Positions 2,263 to 7,277 of a stretch of DNA of 34,934 nt are shown piece by piece; positions within the stretch are counted from its first letter, which is position 1, and the number at the start of each line of letters is the position of its first letter. Both the position numbers and the translations under genes were made by a program. Below the pieces are notes generated by a model. The model was given only the letters and a program-made list of their open reading frames with translations, did not search any database and had not been told where the DNA came from. Source of the DNA: a virus; IMG/VR virus record IMGVR_UViG_3300011257_000067, positions 1 to 34,934 of that record; one strand, given 5' to 3'.

Positions 2263-4938
2263 ATGCAAAACCATGCGGTCAGCGATAGCGATATTGTTCA
2301 GGCATTACTGAACAACCCGCTGCTGAAGTTTCAAGACAAGGGCGAATACCTGCGAAAAGGTGAGTGCCCTGAATGTGGTCGAAATGAGCTCTATCTCAGA
2401 AAATCACAACCCTACCAGGTGGCGTGTTCACGTGAAGGTAATTGCGGTTATACCGAATCAACCCGCAACTTGGTGCCAGAGCTATTCAGCCAATATACCG
2501 AGCGTTTCCCAAAAACAGAGAGTGACCCTAATGCCACGGCCGATGCCTATCTGTCCCATAACAGGGGCTTTCCGATTATTAAGATGCGTGGCTGGTATGA
2601 GCAACATACCGAACGCTGGGAGATAGAGCCCGGAAAATATGAATACTGTGAAGGCATCCGTTTTTATCTCGATGCAGAGCGCACCCGGTACTGGTCACGC
2701 CTGATTGATCGAACAGGAAAAGAAGGCCATAAAGCGCACTTTGCGGGCAAGCGTAAGGCTGATAAAACCCTGTTTCGTGGGGATGCCTGGGCACCGCCGG
2801 GAATGGAGATCAACGACGGCGATAAAGTGTATATCGTCGAAGGCATCTTTCATGCGATCGCCTTCTGGGCTGCAGGCTTTAAAGCGATCGCCGCTTTCAG
2901 CTGCAACAACTTCCCGATCAATTTTATCAGTCAGTACAAAGGTAAACGGATTACCTGGTGTATCGCGCTGGATGAAGGTGAAGCCGGCCGTAAATACGCC
3001 CTTAAATTCACTGAACTGATGGCAGAGGCCAAAGAAAAATCACAGGTTTACTTGCCGCCGAATGCAGAAACCGACTGGGACGATCTATACCGTGCCGGCC
3101 AGTTGGTTCAAACAGAACTAAATGATTGTGAATATCGCGGAAAACTATTTTTAGCGAAGGATATTGCCAGTAAAGCATATCACTGGCACCTAAAAACTAA
3201 GCGCCGTTACGGCATCCTTGACCACAACAACCGTCTGTATGAAGTAAAGATCTCAAAAGATCTGGAATCAGCCCTGCAGGATAAAAACTGCGAACTGGAG
3301 TCAGGCGAAGGCCGCGAGGTTTTCCAACACAACATATTCACCGGCCTGATCAGCAACTGCCTTCCAACGTTTCTCTACATGGAACGCGACGAAGTGATGG
3401 ATGAACAGCGGTTTGTTTTTCGCTTTGATTACAGCAACGGCGCGGCCTCTGAGATTATCGCGCTGGATGGTAACAATATTGAAAGCCCTGCAGCCTTCAA
3501 TAAAGCGCTGCTAAACCGCACCCGTGGTGGCACCTTCGATGGTGGCGCCCAGGAATTCAAAAACCTGCGGGATAGCTGGTTAAACCGAAAAATGCTGATC
3601 GTCCAATCTAACCCGTTCATAGGATATGACGCTGACCTTAAAGCCTACATTTTTCCTAAGTTTGCGTTTTATCGTGGAAGAGATGTGGCATTAAACCCCC
3701 AGGGATATTTCCAGCTTGATGCAAAGCGCCTGGTAAAAGTCAGCAGCCCGGGTTTCAACCTGGTGAAGGGCGAACCCTTCAACCCCTCATGGTTTAACGA
3801 CTATCTGAAAGTATTTAACTGGCATGGCTTCGCTGCGCTGGCGTGGTGGACGGGTTCATATTTCTGCGAACAGATCCGCCGTAAGCAGAGCAGCTGGTGT
3901 TTCTTTGAGCTGACAGGGGAGCAGGGCGCGGGTAAGTCGACCATCCTGGAATTTCTCTGGAAGTTAACCGGCCGTGATGGCCACGAAGGATTCAACCCGG
4001 GTAAATCATCACAAGCCGGTCGCCGTCGGGCATTTAACCAGGGCGCGGGGCTGCCGGTGTGTCTGATTGAAGGCGATCGGGAAGAAACCGGCGATGCCAA
4101 AAAGGGCGGTTTTAACTTTGATGAACTGAAAGACCTCTACAACGGCCGTGCAACTGGCACGCTGGGGATCGCTAAGCGGGGCTATCAGACCGATGAGCCA
4201 TTATTCAAAGGATCTGTACTGTTTGCCCAGAACGCGACCGTAGACGCCTCTCAGGCGATGCTGGCGCGAATCGTACACAGCCATGTCACCAAAGAACATC
4301 ACACCCCGGGGATGCTGCCGCTGGCGCGAAAGTTTGAGCAATTCACTGCCAAAGAAGTCGGTGGCTATCTGTCTGCAGCGCTGACACAGGAAAAAGCCTG
4401 GATGGAAACCTACCTGGCAGAGTTTCAACGGGCAGAACAGGATCTCATCCACTGGGGCGAAGTTAAAGATCTGCGGATTATCAAATGTCATGCCCAGGTG
4501 TATGCCTCTGCTGTGGCGCTGTCGCTGTTGTTCCCTCAGATAAAACCTGAATTGCTGATCAGGTTTAAAGATTATCTCTGGGGGCGGGCAAAGAGCCGAC
4601 AGGGGCGCATGAGCAGCGATCATCCATTGGTTGAGCAGTTCTGGGATACCTACTTATATCTGAATGAACAACCGGTTAAGTCAGGCTTTTCATCCGGTGA
4701 CGAGTTTGACGACAGCGGAGAGCTGCTGAACCACTCAAATCAGCGATCAGAGGTGGCAGTAAACCTTAACCACTATCAGGAGATCTGTCGCAAGTTTGGC
4801 CAGGAATTCCCAGATCTGAAGATGCTGAAGAAGGTTTTACCCGGCAGCACACGTTTTAAGTTCCTTAGAACAGACAAAGTGAAGTCATCACGGGCCGGAA
4901 AGACGCTTCATTGCTGGGTTTTTAGTAAGCCAATTTGA
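2263..4938 (+). CDS. Phage primase-helicase (zinc ribbon, Toprim, P-loop NTPase)
   Basis: Replication protein of 891 residues. An N-terminal zinc ribbon has Cys35, Cys38, Cys55 and Cys61. A Toprim-like primase core follows, with the acidic VEG (Glu193) and ALDEGEAG (Asp237) motifs. The helicase part has a Walker A loop GEQGAGKST at 552-560 and a Walker B-like strand CLIEGDREE about 70 residues later. The C-terminal ~100 residues are basic and may bind DNA. The architecture is like phage primase-helicases of the P4 alpha type, which prime, unwind and bind origin iterons. Start at 2263 is preceded by AGGGA; the upstream in-frame extension overlaps the HTH gene. The repeat block immediately downstream is a natural candidate origin for it. 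Confidence 0.9.
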   Translation: MQNHAVSDSDIVQALLNNPLLKFQDKGEYLRKGECPECGRNELYLRKSQPYQVACSREGNCGYTESTRNLVPELFSQYTERFPKTESDPNATADAYLSHNRGFPIIKMRGWYEQHTERWEIEPGKYEYCEGIRFYLDAERTRYWSRLIDRTGKEGHKAHFAGKRKADKTLFRGDAWAPPGMEINDGDKVYIVEGIFHAIAFWAAGFKAIAAFSCNNFPINFISQYKGKRITWCIALDEGEAGRKYALKFTELMAEAKEKSQVYLPPNAETDWDDLYRAGQLVQTELNDCEYRGKLFLAKDIASKAYHWHLKTKRRYGILDHNNRLYEVKISKDLESALQDKNCELESGEGREVFQHNIFTGLISNCLPTFLYMERDEVMDEQRFVFRFDYSNGAASEIIALDGNNIESPAAFNKALLNRTRGGTFDGGAQEFKNLRDSWLNRKMLIVQSNPFIGYDADLKAYIFPKFAFYRGRDVALNPQGYFQLDAKRLVKVSSPGFNLVKGEPFNPSWFNDYLKVFNWHGFAALAWWTGSYFCEQIRRKQSSWCFFELTGEQGAGKSTILEFLWKLTGRDGHEGFNPGKSSQAGRRRAFNQGAGLPVCLIEGDREETGDAKKGGFNFDELKDLYNGRATGTLGIAKRGYQTDEPLFKGSVLFAQNATVDASQAMLARIVHSHVTKEHHTPGMLPLARKFEQFTAKEVGGYLSAALTQEKAWMETYLAEFQRAEQDLIHWGEVKDLRIIKCHAQVYASAVALSLLFPQIKPELLIRFKDYLWGRAKSRQGRMSSDHPLVEQFWDTYLYLNEQPVKSGFSSGDEFDDSGELLNHSNQRSEVAVNLNHYQEICRKFGQEFPDLKMLKKVLPGSTRFKFLRTDKVKSSRAGKTLHCWVFSKPI

Positions 4939-4997: not shown

Positions 4998-5035
4998 GAC
5001 AGGGGGGTGCGCAGAGAGGTAACTTTTGTAACCTT
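4998..5035 (+). repeat. Left arm of long inverted repeat
   Basis: Bases 5009-5035 are an exact reverse complement of 5278-5304 (27 of 27). The match continues outward through a G-run and a GACAG end to 4998, with small length differences in the G/C tract. The arm contains GGTAAC and GTAACC boxes. The segment is non-coding, starting 60 bases after the primase-helicase stop. Confidence 0.9.
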
Positions 5036-5295
5036 TGCTAATAAATAGGTTGATTCTTATTTAAATACAAAGAGTTATAAGAAATTCAGAAAGGTAACTT
5101 TGAGGTAACTTTTAAGTAACCTCGGTTACCTCAAAAAGTAACTTTTTAGGAAATCAAAAATTCCTTATAAATCAATCAGGTAACTTTTCAGGTTACCTCT
5201 GGTTACCTAAAAGTTACCTTTTGTCTGTTTTTCTCTATCCCTTGTAATCCGTGGCTTGTAGGCACCATCGCGGTGGCAAGGTTACAAAAGTTACC
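5018..5295. other. Iteron-like cluster, candidate replication origin
   Basis: The 405-base gap 4939-5344 has no gene. It carries 13 copies of the word GTAAC or its complement GTTAC: forward at 5019, 5028, 5094, 5105, 5116, 5138 and 5180; reverse at 5125, 5192, 5202, 5212, 5281 and 5290. Most extend to GGTAACTTTT or its complement. Local palindromes include GTAACC-TC-GGTTAC at 5116-5129 and AAAAAGT-A-ACTTTTT at 5133-5147. The spacer is AT-rich. Dense iterons beside a primase-helicase resemble ori or crr of phage P4, where the alpha protein binds repeated motifs. Origin function is inferred; an autoregulatory site or a small mobile element is possible. Confidence 0.65.
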
Positions 5296-5318
5296 TCTCT
5301 GCGCCCCCCCCCTCTGTC
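5278..5318 (-). repeat. Right arm of long inverted repeat
   Basis: Reverse-complement partner of the left arm at 4998-5035: 5278-5304 match exactly and the outer end finishes in a nine-base C run and TCTGTC. Together the arms bracket a 321-base element. No obvious target-site duplication flanks it, which argues against a recently inserted miniature transposon. It ends 26 bases before the next gene. Confidence 0.9.
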
Positions 5319-5344: not shown

Positions 5345-5644
5345 ATGTCAGATTCCAGCCCTAAGTTTCGCCAGGAATGCTTAGCCCGGCATCTGTTAAG
5401 CAGCACCCAGAGCCGCCGGGATTATTTTGAAAAGAACCCTAAACAGGTTGATCTGATGGTTGATCTGATGCGTCAGGAACAAGCCAGAAGACTGGCAAAA
5501 ATGACACATGATGAACGTGAAGAATGGTACAGCCGCCAACACTTGGCGGCGCGTGACAATAAAAATCGACAGCGCTATCTGGTCGACATAACCCAGCGCT
5601 TAGAGTCGCTAACACAAGAAGGAAAAACCAATGAGCAGAAATAA
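5345..5644 (+). CDS. Small phage protein of unknown function
   Basis: A 99-residue, strongly charged and helical protein with a GGAGG ribosome site at 5333-5337. The N-terminal FRQECLARHLLSS and later RRDYFEKNP recall small phage proteins that begin with an E-C-x-A-R-x-L motif (DUF7696-like), but I am not sure of that match. It is the first gene after the origin-like repeats and starts a tightly packed operon; its 3' end overlaps the next gene by 14 bases. No catalytic residues are evident. Confidence 0.7.
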   Translation: MSDSSPKFRQECLARHLLSSTQSRRDYFEKNPKQVDLMVDLMRQEQARRLAKMTHDEREEWYSRQHLAARDNKNRQRYLVDITQRLESLTQEGKTNEQK

Positions 5645-5825
5645 AAGTCAGGTCACCGAACGGGTAAACGCCCTTCAGGCGAGGGTTGAGGATTTAACGC
5701 CAGAACAGCAGCAGGACTTTCTTAAAATATTGTTCAGCCATGCCCGTGCCACGGTGGTTTATCACCCGCAGCACATCTGGAACACCTGCAATTTGATGGA
5801 AATGACACTCGATGTCGTGAAGTAA
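5631..5825 (+). CDS. Small phage protein of unknown function
   Basis: A 64-residue protein with an AAGGA ribosome site and a 14-base overlap with the upstream gene, suggesting translational coupling. The first half (ERVNALQARVEDLTPEQQQD) is predicted to be helical; the rest has single His, Trp and Cys residues with no recognised motif. Not recognised. Confidence 0.65.
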   Translation: MSRNKSQVTERVNALQARVEDLTPEQQQDFLKILFSHARATVVYHPQHIWNTCNLMEMTLDVVK

Positions 5826-6989: not shown

Positions 6990-7277
6990 ATGTTGATATT
7001 AACTCGTCGAGTAAGTGAAACCCTGATCATCGGTAGTGAAGAGGTCACCGTCACCGTGTTGGGCGTCAAGGGCAACCAGGTACGCATCGGTATCGATGCC
7101 CCTAAAGATGTGCAGGTGCACCGTAAGGAGATCTGGCAGCGCATTCAGGATGAGAAGAAAAAACCGCTCAACATCGGTATTGATATGGCAAAGCCCGGCA
7201 GCGATAAGTCCGTCCGTTTTGTACTCACTGAGGCCGGTTCTGCAGCGCTGGATAACGGAAATGAGGTGCAATCATGA
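6990..7277 (+). CDS. csrA: Phage-encoded CsrA-like RNA-binding regulator
   Basis: Homologue of the post-transcriptional regulator CsrA, which binds GGA in mRNA leader loops and controls translation. Residues 1-57 keep the canonical sequence: [15 protein letters not shown], then [19 protein letters not shown] and VHRKEI, including Leu4, Thr5, Arg6, Arg7 and the RNA-contacting Arg45. Cellular CsrA has about 61 residues; this one has 95, with a 35-residue tail ([14 protein letters not shown]). A very good AAGGAGG ribosome site is present and the gene sits inside the early operon, sharing an ATGA with the next gene. It could reprogramme host carbon or motility mRNAs or time phage genes; target is unknown. 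Confidence 0.93.

Follow-up and report, generated by a model that had tools for sequence, protein, structure and literature searches.

The window analysed here is the whole stretch of 34,934 nucleotides of IMG/VR virus record IMGVR_UViG_3300011257_000067, and the question that it raises is what purpose is served by one short word repeated between long inverted arms immediately behind a primase-helicase gene. Judged by its gene content, the window is a P2-like temperate phage. An integrase, an S24 repressor, an HTH protein, the primase-helicase, the element itself, small genes, a CsrA homologue and a Dam-type methylase follow in that order, and portal, terminase, P2-type capsid, scaffold and tail genes lie downstream of this early region. 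The CsrA homologue (6990–7277; NCBIfam E 2e-30) is phage-encoded and belongs to the early region. Direct adjacency to the primase-helicase, claimed in an earlier reading of the letters alone (the sequence-only reading), was borne out, the element beginning 63 b after the stop at 4938. Just past the element begins a 99-aa protein with a weak DUF7696 match (5345–5644). Similar small ORFs were present at this place in relatives L005 and L008, and the element therefore sits between two genes that are kept together.

Words were counted directly and against shuffled sequences. GTAAC starts at 5019, 5028, 5094, 5105, 5116, 5138 and 5180, and GTTAC at 5125, 5192, 5202, 5213, 5281 and 5290; as GTTAC is the reverse complement of GTAAC, these represent a single word on both strands. 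The earlier count of seven GTAAC and six GTTAC in less than 280 bases was reproduced at 5019–5294. About one word had been thought likely by chance. Across the whole window the two words numbered 44, compared with 43.4 ± 5.8 in shuffles (no overall enrichment), and because this count matches chance the expectation for a 276-b stretch is nearer 0.34, against 13 observed; the clustering is far above chance, as had been said. The fuller box in the window is AGGTAACT/AGTTACCT, i.e. (A)GGTAAC(T). A weight-matrix scan found 14 strong sites in the element, at most one per 300 b outside it, and no second cluster in the whole window, which may not be a complete genome.

The arms form a 34-nt inverted repeat that is complementary at 33 of 34 positions (97%), with 242 nt between them. 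Within it lies an exact stretch of 27 nt, GCGCAGAGAGGTAACTTTTGTAACCTT, which agrees with the exact 27-base repeat and longer near match described earlier. The arms consist in part of the outer box pairs, together with a G-run/GCGCAGAG flank. The bounds first given, 4998–5318, had the place right and are better drawn at 5002–5311. The outer pairs have a 10-bp period, and as the word is near-palindromic the orientation of the boxes is ambiguous. GC skew had no inflection at the element. Coordinates are collected in Table 1.

Table 1. Features of the primase-helicase gene and of the origin-like element behind it (window positions).
Feature	Position	Strand	Evidence
Primase-helicase (putative initiator)	2263..4938	+	Pfam, PHROG, AlphaFold2 model, PDB fold matches
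C-terminal winged helix, residues 827-885, proposed box reader	4750..4926	+	AlphaFold2 secondary structure, covariation
Whole origin-like element (box array)	5002..5311		Word counts, inverted repeat, weight matrix, conserved place in relatives
Left terminal arm: G-run/GCGCAGAG flank and outer box pair 5017-5024, 5027-5034	5002..5035	+	34-nt inverted repeat, 97%
AT-rich gap, outer to inner boxes; proposed unwinding region	5035..5091		AT 0.73-0.80, 30-b windows 5030-5089
Inner left box group: 5092, 5103, 5115, 5124, 5136	5092..5143		Weight-matrix scan
AT-rich centre bearing CCTTATAAATCAATC; common to several related elements	5144..5177		Sequence
Inner right box group: 5178, 5191, 5201, 5212	5178..5219		Weight-matrix scan
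Right terminal arm: outer box pair 5279-5286, 5289-5296 and CTCTGCGCCCCCCCC flank	5278..5311	-	Inverted repeat, weight-matrix scan

The primase-helicase was assigned to PHROG 1139 (DNA primase, E 1e-206). Residues are numbered from codon 2272; the ATG is at 2263, and 3 is added to obtain Met-based numbers. The domain order is Zn-ribbon cysteines, a Toprim/DnaG-type primase, a D5/Cch-type AAA+ helicase and a C-terminal winged helix. Pfam matches were to Toprim_2 and Toprim_3 (Toprim_3 E 3e-7). The window primase gave no Zn-ribbon match in Pfam; cysteines 32, 35, 52 and 58 are invariant or nearly so in the alignments. A PDB sequence search returned only DnaG as significant. In the AlphaFold2 model (pLDDT 90), residues 79–295 matched DnaG 5guj (Z 15.4), and residues 313–888 matched SCCmec Cch 5dgk (Z 24.8) and SaPIbov1 Rep 8tch (Z 22.3, 438 residues aligned). 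The last 60 residues were predicted as strand-helix-helix-strand-strand (E827–830, H832–841, H849–858, E863–871, E878–885), which is the order of a winged helix. Residues 871 (K, codon 4882–4884) and 876 (G, codon 4897–4899) lie at the ends of the predicted wing loop and vary with the box. When the C-terminal model was searched alone, the best Foldseek match (SCCmec Cch, E 0.11) was not significant and the VIA rows were background (Z ≤6); the full-length model was the informative one. The solved P4 alpha C-terminal domain was not among the structure matches listed, which says nothing on its absence.

Relatives of the primase were gathered from viral contigs, species genomes and phage records. 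In the 600 bp that follow the primase stop, the best k-mer cluster scored at least 48 in 53% of 178 loci, compared with 0.6% of 1,945 control stretches from the same loci. A de novo motif beat all 120 controls in 50 of the 60 non-redundant relatives with primase identity of at least 36%. Among more distant relatives (identity up to 35%) this was so in 6 of 39 only; distant primases are mostly without an adjacent cluster, and the coupling is therefore clade-specific. The clusters lie in the first 450 bp past the stop, typically at +75 to +395, and three further relatives have theirs displaced 700–1,260 bp downstream. No strong cluster was found in the regions searched for about seven non-redundant clade relatives, and L021, L133, L180, L117 and other clade members had no convincing array near the primase gene. 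Two findings had been named beforehand as telling against an origin, namely relatives with the same primase and no repeats, and copies of the element scattered away from phages; in the event the close relatives carry the repeats, and the related arrays that were found sit 3' of a primase.

The box word is GGTAAC in the window and GGAACA, GGAAGG, GGAATG, CCTAAC or others in relatives. Clusters behind the primase were of GGTAAC in L005 (64% identity), CCTTCCA in phage PaBSM-2607-JFK (40%) and GGAACA in phage phi3 (38%), and L006 and L007 (48%) carry CACACC and GGTTCA clusters beyond one extra gene. The complete phi3 genome has 44 copies of GGAACA, 16 of them inside its element and at most two per 300 b elsewhere. 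The layout is shared: inverted paired outer boxes, an AT-rich gap and then inner boxes, the first box typically 77 bp past the stop and the whole spanning about 300 bp. Among the 43 elements with both outer pairs, 41 have direct pairs that are mutually inverted, usually with a 9-bp period. The gap after the left pair is about 56 bp (quartiles 54–58 bp) and has a median AT content of 0.74, the figure for the loci being 0.47. Outside the outer boxes the flanks are complementary at 0.56, compared with 0.43 when shuffled (maximum of 200 shuffles, 0.46), an example being GGGGGGTCCGGAAAAG...CTTTTCCGGACCCCCC in L048. Since complementary flanks recur in relatives, the long arms of the window are a good example of a common feature. 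The motif and long arms that the sequence-only reading took as distinctive are both present, and are variable details of a family-wide layout.

Several further observations were made in these loci. The sequence CCTTATAAATCAATC recurs centrally, independent of the word, in GGTAAC- and CCTAAC-type elements (the window, L099, L124, L101 and L052), and GGAACA-type elements have GCTGCAGCC...GGCCTCCAGC-like repeats in its place. Among distant relatives, phage UFJF_PfPro has a CTGACA cluster about 3.4 kb downstream of the primase (L018:10047–10321), L191 has a GTCACA cluster 230 bp downstream (5391–5658), and phage ESSI2_ev239 has a GTCCACA cluster adjoining the integrase (L010:846–1069), which may represent integrase arm sites. 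A reverse transcriptase gene adjoins the integrase of phi3 (L009:386–2071) and is possibly a prophage-borne defence gene. The extra gene of L006 and L007 (L006:5727–6326, L007:5769–6368) is a separate reading frame of 199 aa, in the order primase, this gene, box array. It encodes an extra copy of the primase C-terminal winged helix, about 28–42% identical to the C-termini of relatives, and might act on the origin as a factor in copy number or interference. L006, L007 and L144 were considered as split primases and this was rejected, the primases being intact and accompanied by a separate copy of the C-terminal domain. Such stand-alone domains may make up PHROG 20645, a family matching the winged helix of the window primase. 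In Marinospirillum (L117, L119 and L120) the primase is followed by a 325-aa protein that by eye looks like a ParM-type actin homologue and by a protein of about 100 aa, an arrangement reminiscent of partition systems on plasmids, and a phage-plasmid way of life is possible for these elements. Box arrays near their primases are weak or absent.

A primase that reads the boxes would be expected to vary with the word in the part that contacts DNA. The word class switched at least 22 times on a tree from which the last 120 residues had been left out. Covariation was scanned along the primase in a 24-member Pseudomonas-type subclade with overall similarity removed. Local identity correlated with word similarity at residues 821–860 and 841–880 (r about 0.65–0.67), a level reached in 0 of 2,000 permutations both for these segments and for the maximum statistic over all segments; the relatives are not independent, and kinship, not fully removed, inflates these permutation statistics. 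No segment before residue 821 was significant after correction in this subclade. Pairs matched for core identity differed by 0.09–0.11 at the C-terminus and little elsewhere. A second peak at residues 581–640, obtained by partial correlation over the whole family, was not significant in the Pseudomonas-type subclade and was therefore treated as phylogeny. The tree-based paired test had 5 independent pairs only and is underpowered; three to four agreed and none opposed. By these comparisons it is the C-terminal winged helix that tracks the box word, and the rest of the primase does not.

Two residues are conspicuous in this correspondence. R871 with K or R876 pairs with GGAACA, H871 with GGAAGG, Y871/R876 with GGAATG, and K871/G876, in the window and L005, with GGTAAC. 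Taken as a rule, residues 871 and 876 give the right word for all 73 callable Pseudomonas-type loci, several of which have arrays too weak for rule-finding; callable loci are non-identical, carry at least three copies of one of the four core words and fall within a 43%-identity cut. L006, L007 and L144 fall outside this cut and the covariation analyses, and their tabulated residues 871 and 876 are those of the extra domain copy. Because L028, L111 and L117 have the same residues yet none of the words, the code does not hold for every member of the family. Two separate supported clades show the Y/R-GGAATG pairing, and the H-GGAAGG pairing is found in two or three places on the tree; such recurrence could stem from transfer of the gene end along with the array.

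A natural pair of loci illustrates the switch. The primases of L040 and L050 are 98% identical, differing at 15 of 885 positions, 9 of which are in the last 110 residues. Residue 871 changes from Y to W as the array changes from CATTCCAG to CATACCAG. Full boxes of the two kinds (CATTCCAG/CATACCAG) number 9/2 in L040, 10/1 in L160, 11/0 in L044 and 0/8 in L050. DNA identity between L040 and L050 is about 0.97 in the primase, 0.76–0.87 over the gene end and element, and about 0.91 beyond; the dip points to joint change, or to import of a cassette made up of gene end and origin.

The element is very probably the replication origin of this P2-like phage, of the P4 crr/SaPI-ori kind, and would be bound by the winged helix of the phage's own primase-helicase. 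The likeness to an origin of the P4 alpha-ori-crr type, already proposed, is strongly supported by comparison, now that place and layout prove to be conserved and the box word to be coupled to the C-terminus of the primase. What the sequences show is the array and its layout, its constant position, the changes of word and a coupling confined to the C-terminal domain; physical binding, melting and initiation we infer, and the mechanism proposed is modelled on the one reported for SaPI Rep, of which part is demonstrated for Cch2. The winged helix at the C-terminus of the primase-helicase encoded upstream would bind the GGTAAC boxes, and the sequence preferred would depend in large part on the wing loop (871–876). 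The symmetric inner groups and inverted outer pairs would hold several copies of the protein, which by homology to SaPI Rep and Cch may assemble into rings. The rings would melt the AT-rich gap beside the outer pair, the melted single strands would be loaded with primase-helicase, and the Toprim domain would prime synthesis for the host polymerase.

The main rival to an origin is a crr-like accessory or control array (copy control, looping), bound by the primase while synthesis begins elsewhere in the genome. P4 needs two loci, ori and crr, so that a lone array behind the gene might play the part of crr, and in P4 it is crr, not ori, that holds this position relative to alpha. The element has its own AT-rich gap between box groups, however, and a second box cluster is present neither in the window nor in complete phi3; one cluster in each favours a single-locus origin, and the crr-like role is considered unlikely. 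An operator or regulatory array for another phage protein (the repressor, a Cox-like HTH protein or the small downstream protein) is much less probable again. Operators are abundant in phage early regions and the array lies between operon genes, but 10–16 symmetric boxes over 300 bp exceed the usual operator, and the word follows two C-terminal residues of the primase and no other part of it (coupling was scanned in the primase only).

The 34-nt terminal inverted repeats around 242 nt might also suggest a mobile repeat (MITE- or REP-like) inserted behind the primase. BLAST with the element gave no match in 50,697 phage, 72,556 plasmid and 20,395 E. coli records, and in dozens of relatives an array of different words and conserved layout lies equally far behind the primase; with no copies and a place fixed behind the primase, this explanation was rejected as scarcely credible. 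Equally far-fetched are an RNA structure or transcription terminator closing the operon and a site for packaging or partition, despite the large inverted repeats, the intergenic place and the ParM-like protein further downstream in the Marinospirillum relatives, since arms 242 nt apart make a poor terminator, the terminase genes are 7–10 kb off, no partition genes were recognised in the window, and the coupling to the primase is left unexplained.

Beyond the origin itself, a fuller account is offered tentatively, as one that may well prove wrong. The element could combine ori and crr at a single locus, its word having been replaced at least 22 times, with specificity residing mostly in the two residues at the ends of the wing loop, so that words are predictable from the protein, and with arrays of about 10 boxes switching in concert between near-identical phages (L040/L050), probably in escape from incompatibility or interference by related replicons. 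An origin comprises many sites and its initiator has one reading domain, and the two must change together, which makes the switch of a whole array a puzzle. The family supplies many natural switches, including initiators 98% identical with differently spelled arrays. Residues 871 and 876 are two candidate specificity residues, and the correspondence between wing and box makes initiator specificity testable. It may also predict which related prophages cross-initiate or exclude each other. The fixed place also serves as a rule for finding the origin in P2-like prophages of this large group, which includes those of Pseudomonas, Hahella and Microbulbifer among others; the literature searched offered no described origin for them.

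The suggestion of an undescribed replicon type was not sustained: the mechanism class, a primase-helicase initiator with a box array 3' of its gene, is already known from P4, SaPI Rep and SCCmec Cch2. New, as far as the literature searched shows, are the description for a large P2-like phage group, the number of words and the two-residue correspondence. A literature search with partial journal coverage turned up no account of an origin for phi3-like phages or for other P2-like phages with a Toprim primase.

Phage P4 resembles the window in that one protein joins a Toprim primase, a helicase and a C-terminal DNA-binding domain, the last predicted in the case of the window. Some 10 boxes of eight bases, in either orientation, make up its crr (4291–4590; alpha stop 4636), an array of about 300 bp that lies 45 bp 3' of alpha. 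The crr boxes are paired at a 9-bp period. The P4 type 1 box is GGTGAACA, whereas that of the window is (A)GGTAAC(T); crr consists of two 120-bp direct repeats, whereas the element is a quasi-palindrome with terminal inverted arms; and the ori of P4 is a second locus some 4.5 kb away from crr, whereas the window and phi3 show a single cluster. With hhalign only the Toprim region of the window primase aligned with P4 alpha (E 1e-7), and the helicase and C-terminal profile gave no alignment. The Pfam domains D5_N, DUF5906 and Pox_D5 are all found in P4 alpha and none in the window primase, whose modelled helicase fold is nevertheless Cch/SaPI-Rep/D5-like. The window system was not filed as a P4 member because the Pfam helicase and C-terminal domains of alpha were undetected, the box differs and there is no second ori.

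For SaPI Rep it is reported, and for Cch2 partly shown, that the origin lies just downstream of the gene, that the C-terminal domain binds it, and that the boxes are needed for unwinding (PMC7581432). SaPI Rep and SCCmec Cch and Cch2 share with the modelled window protein an AAA+ initiator helicase fold of the hexameric kind and a C-terminal DNA-binding domain, with short boxes directly downstream, and SCCmec Cch (5dgk) and SaPIbov1 Rep (8tch) are the closest solved structures to the predicted helicase and C-terminus. The SaPIbov1 Rep and Cch chains are of about 480–520 residues and lack a Toprim, whereas the window primase has a DnaG-type Toprim fused in. SaPI is a satellite and SCCmec a cassette, whereas the window, as a P2-like phage, carries virion genes for capsid, scaffold, portal, terminase and tail. 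In V. cholerae PLE, modular covariation links the origin to the DNA-binding domain of the RepA_N initiator, the remainder of which is conserved (PMC8263062). That initiator is unrelated, has neither primase nor helicase, and has two origin types, compared with the many words of the present family. Plasmid pRN1 ORF904 and Bordetella phage BIP-1/BPP-1 combine a primase, an SF3 helicase and a winged helix with a proposed origin just 3' (PMC4234260); their primase is of the archaeo-eukaryotic type and the origin a single large stem-loop, whereas that of the window is a box array.
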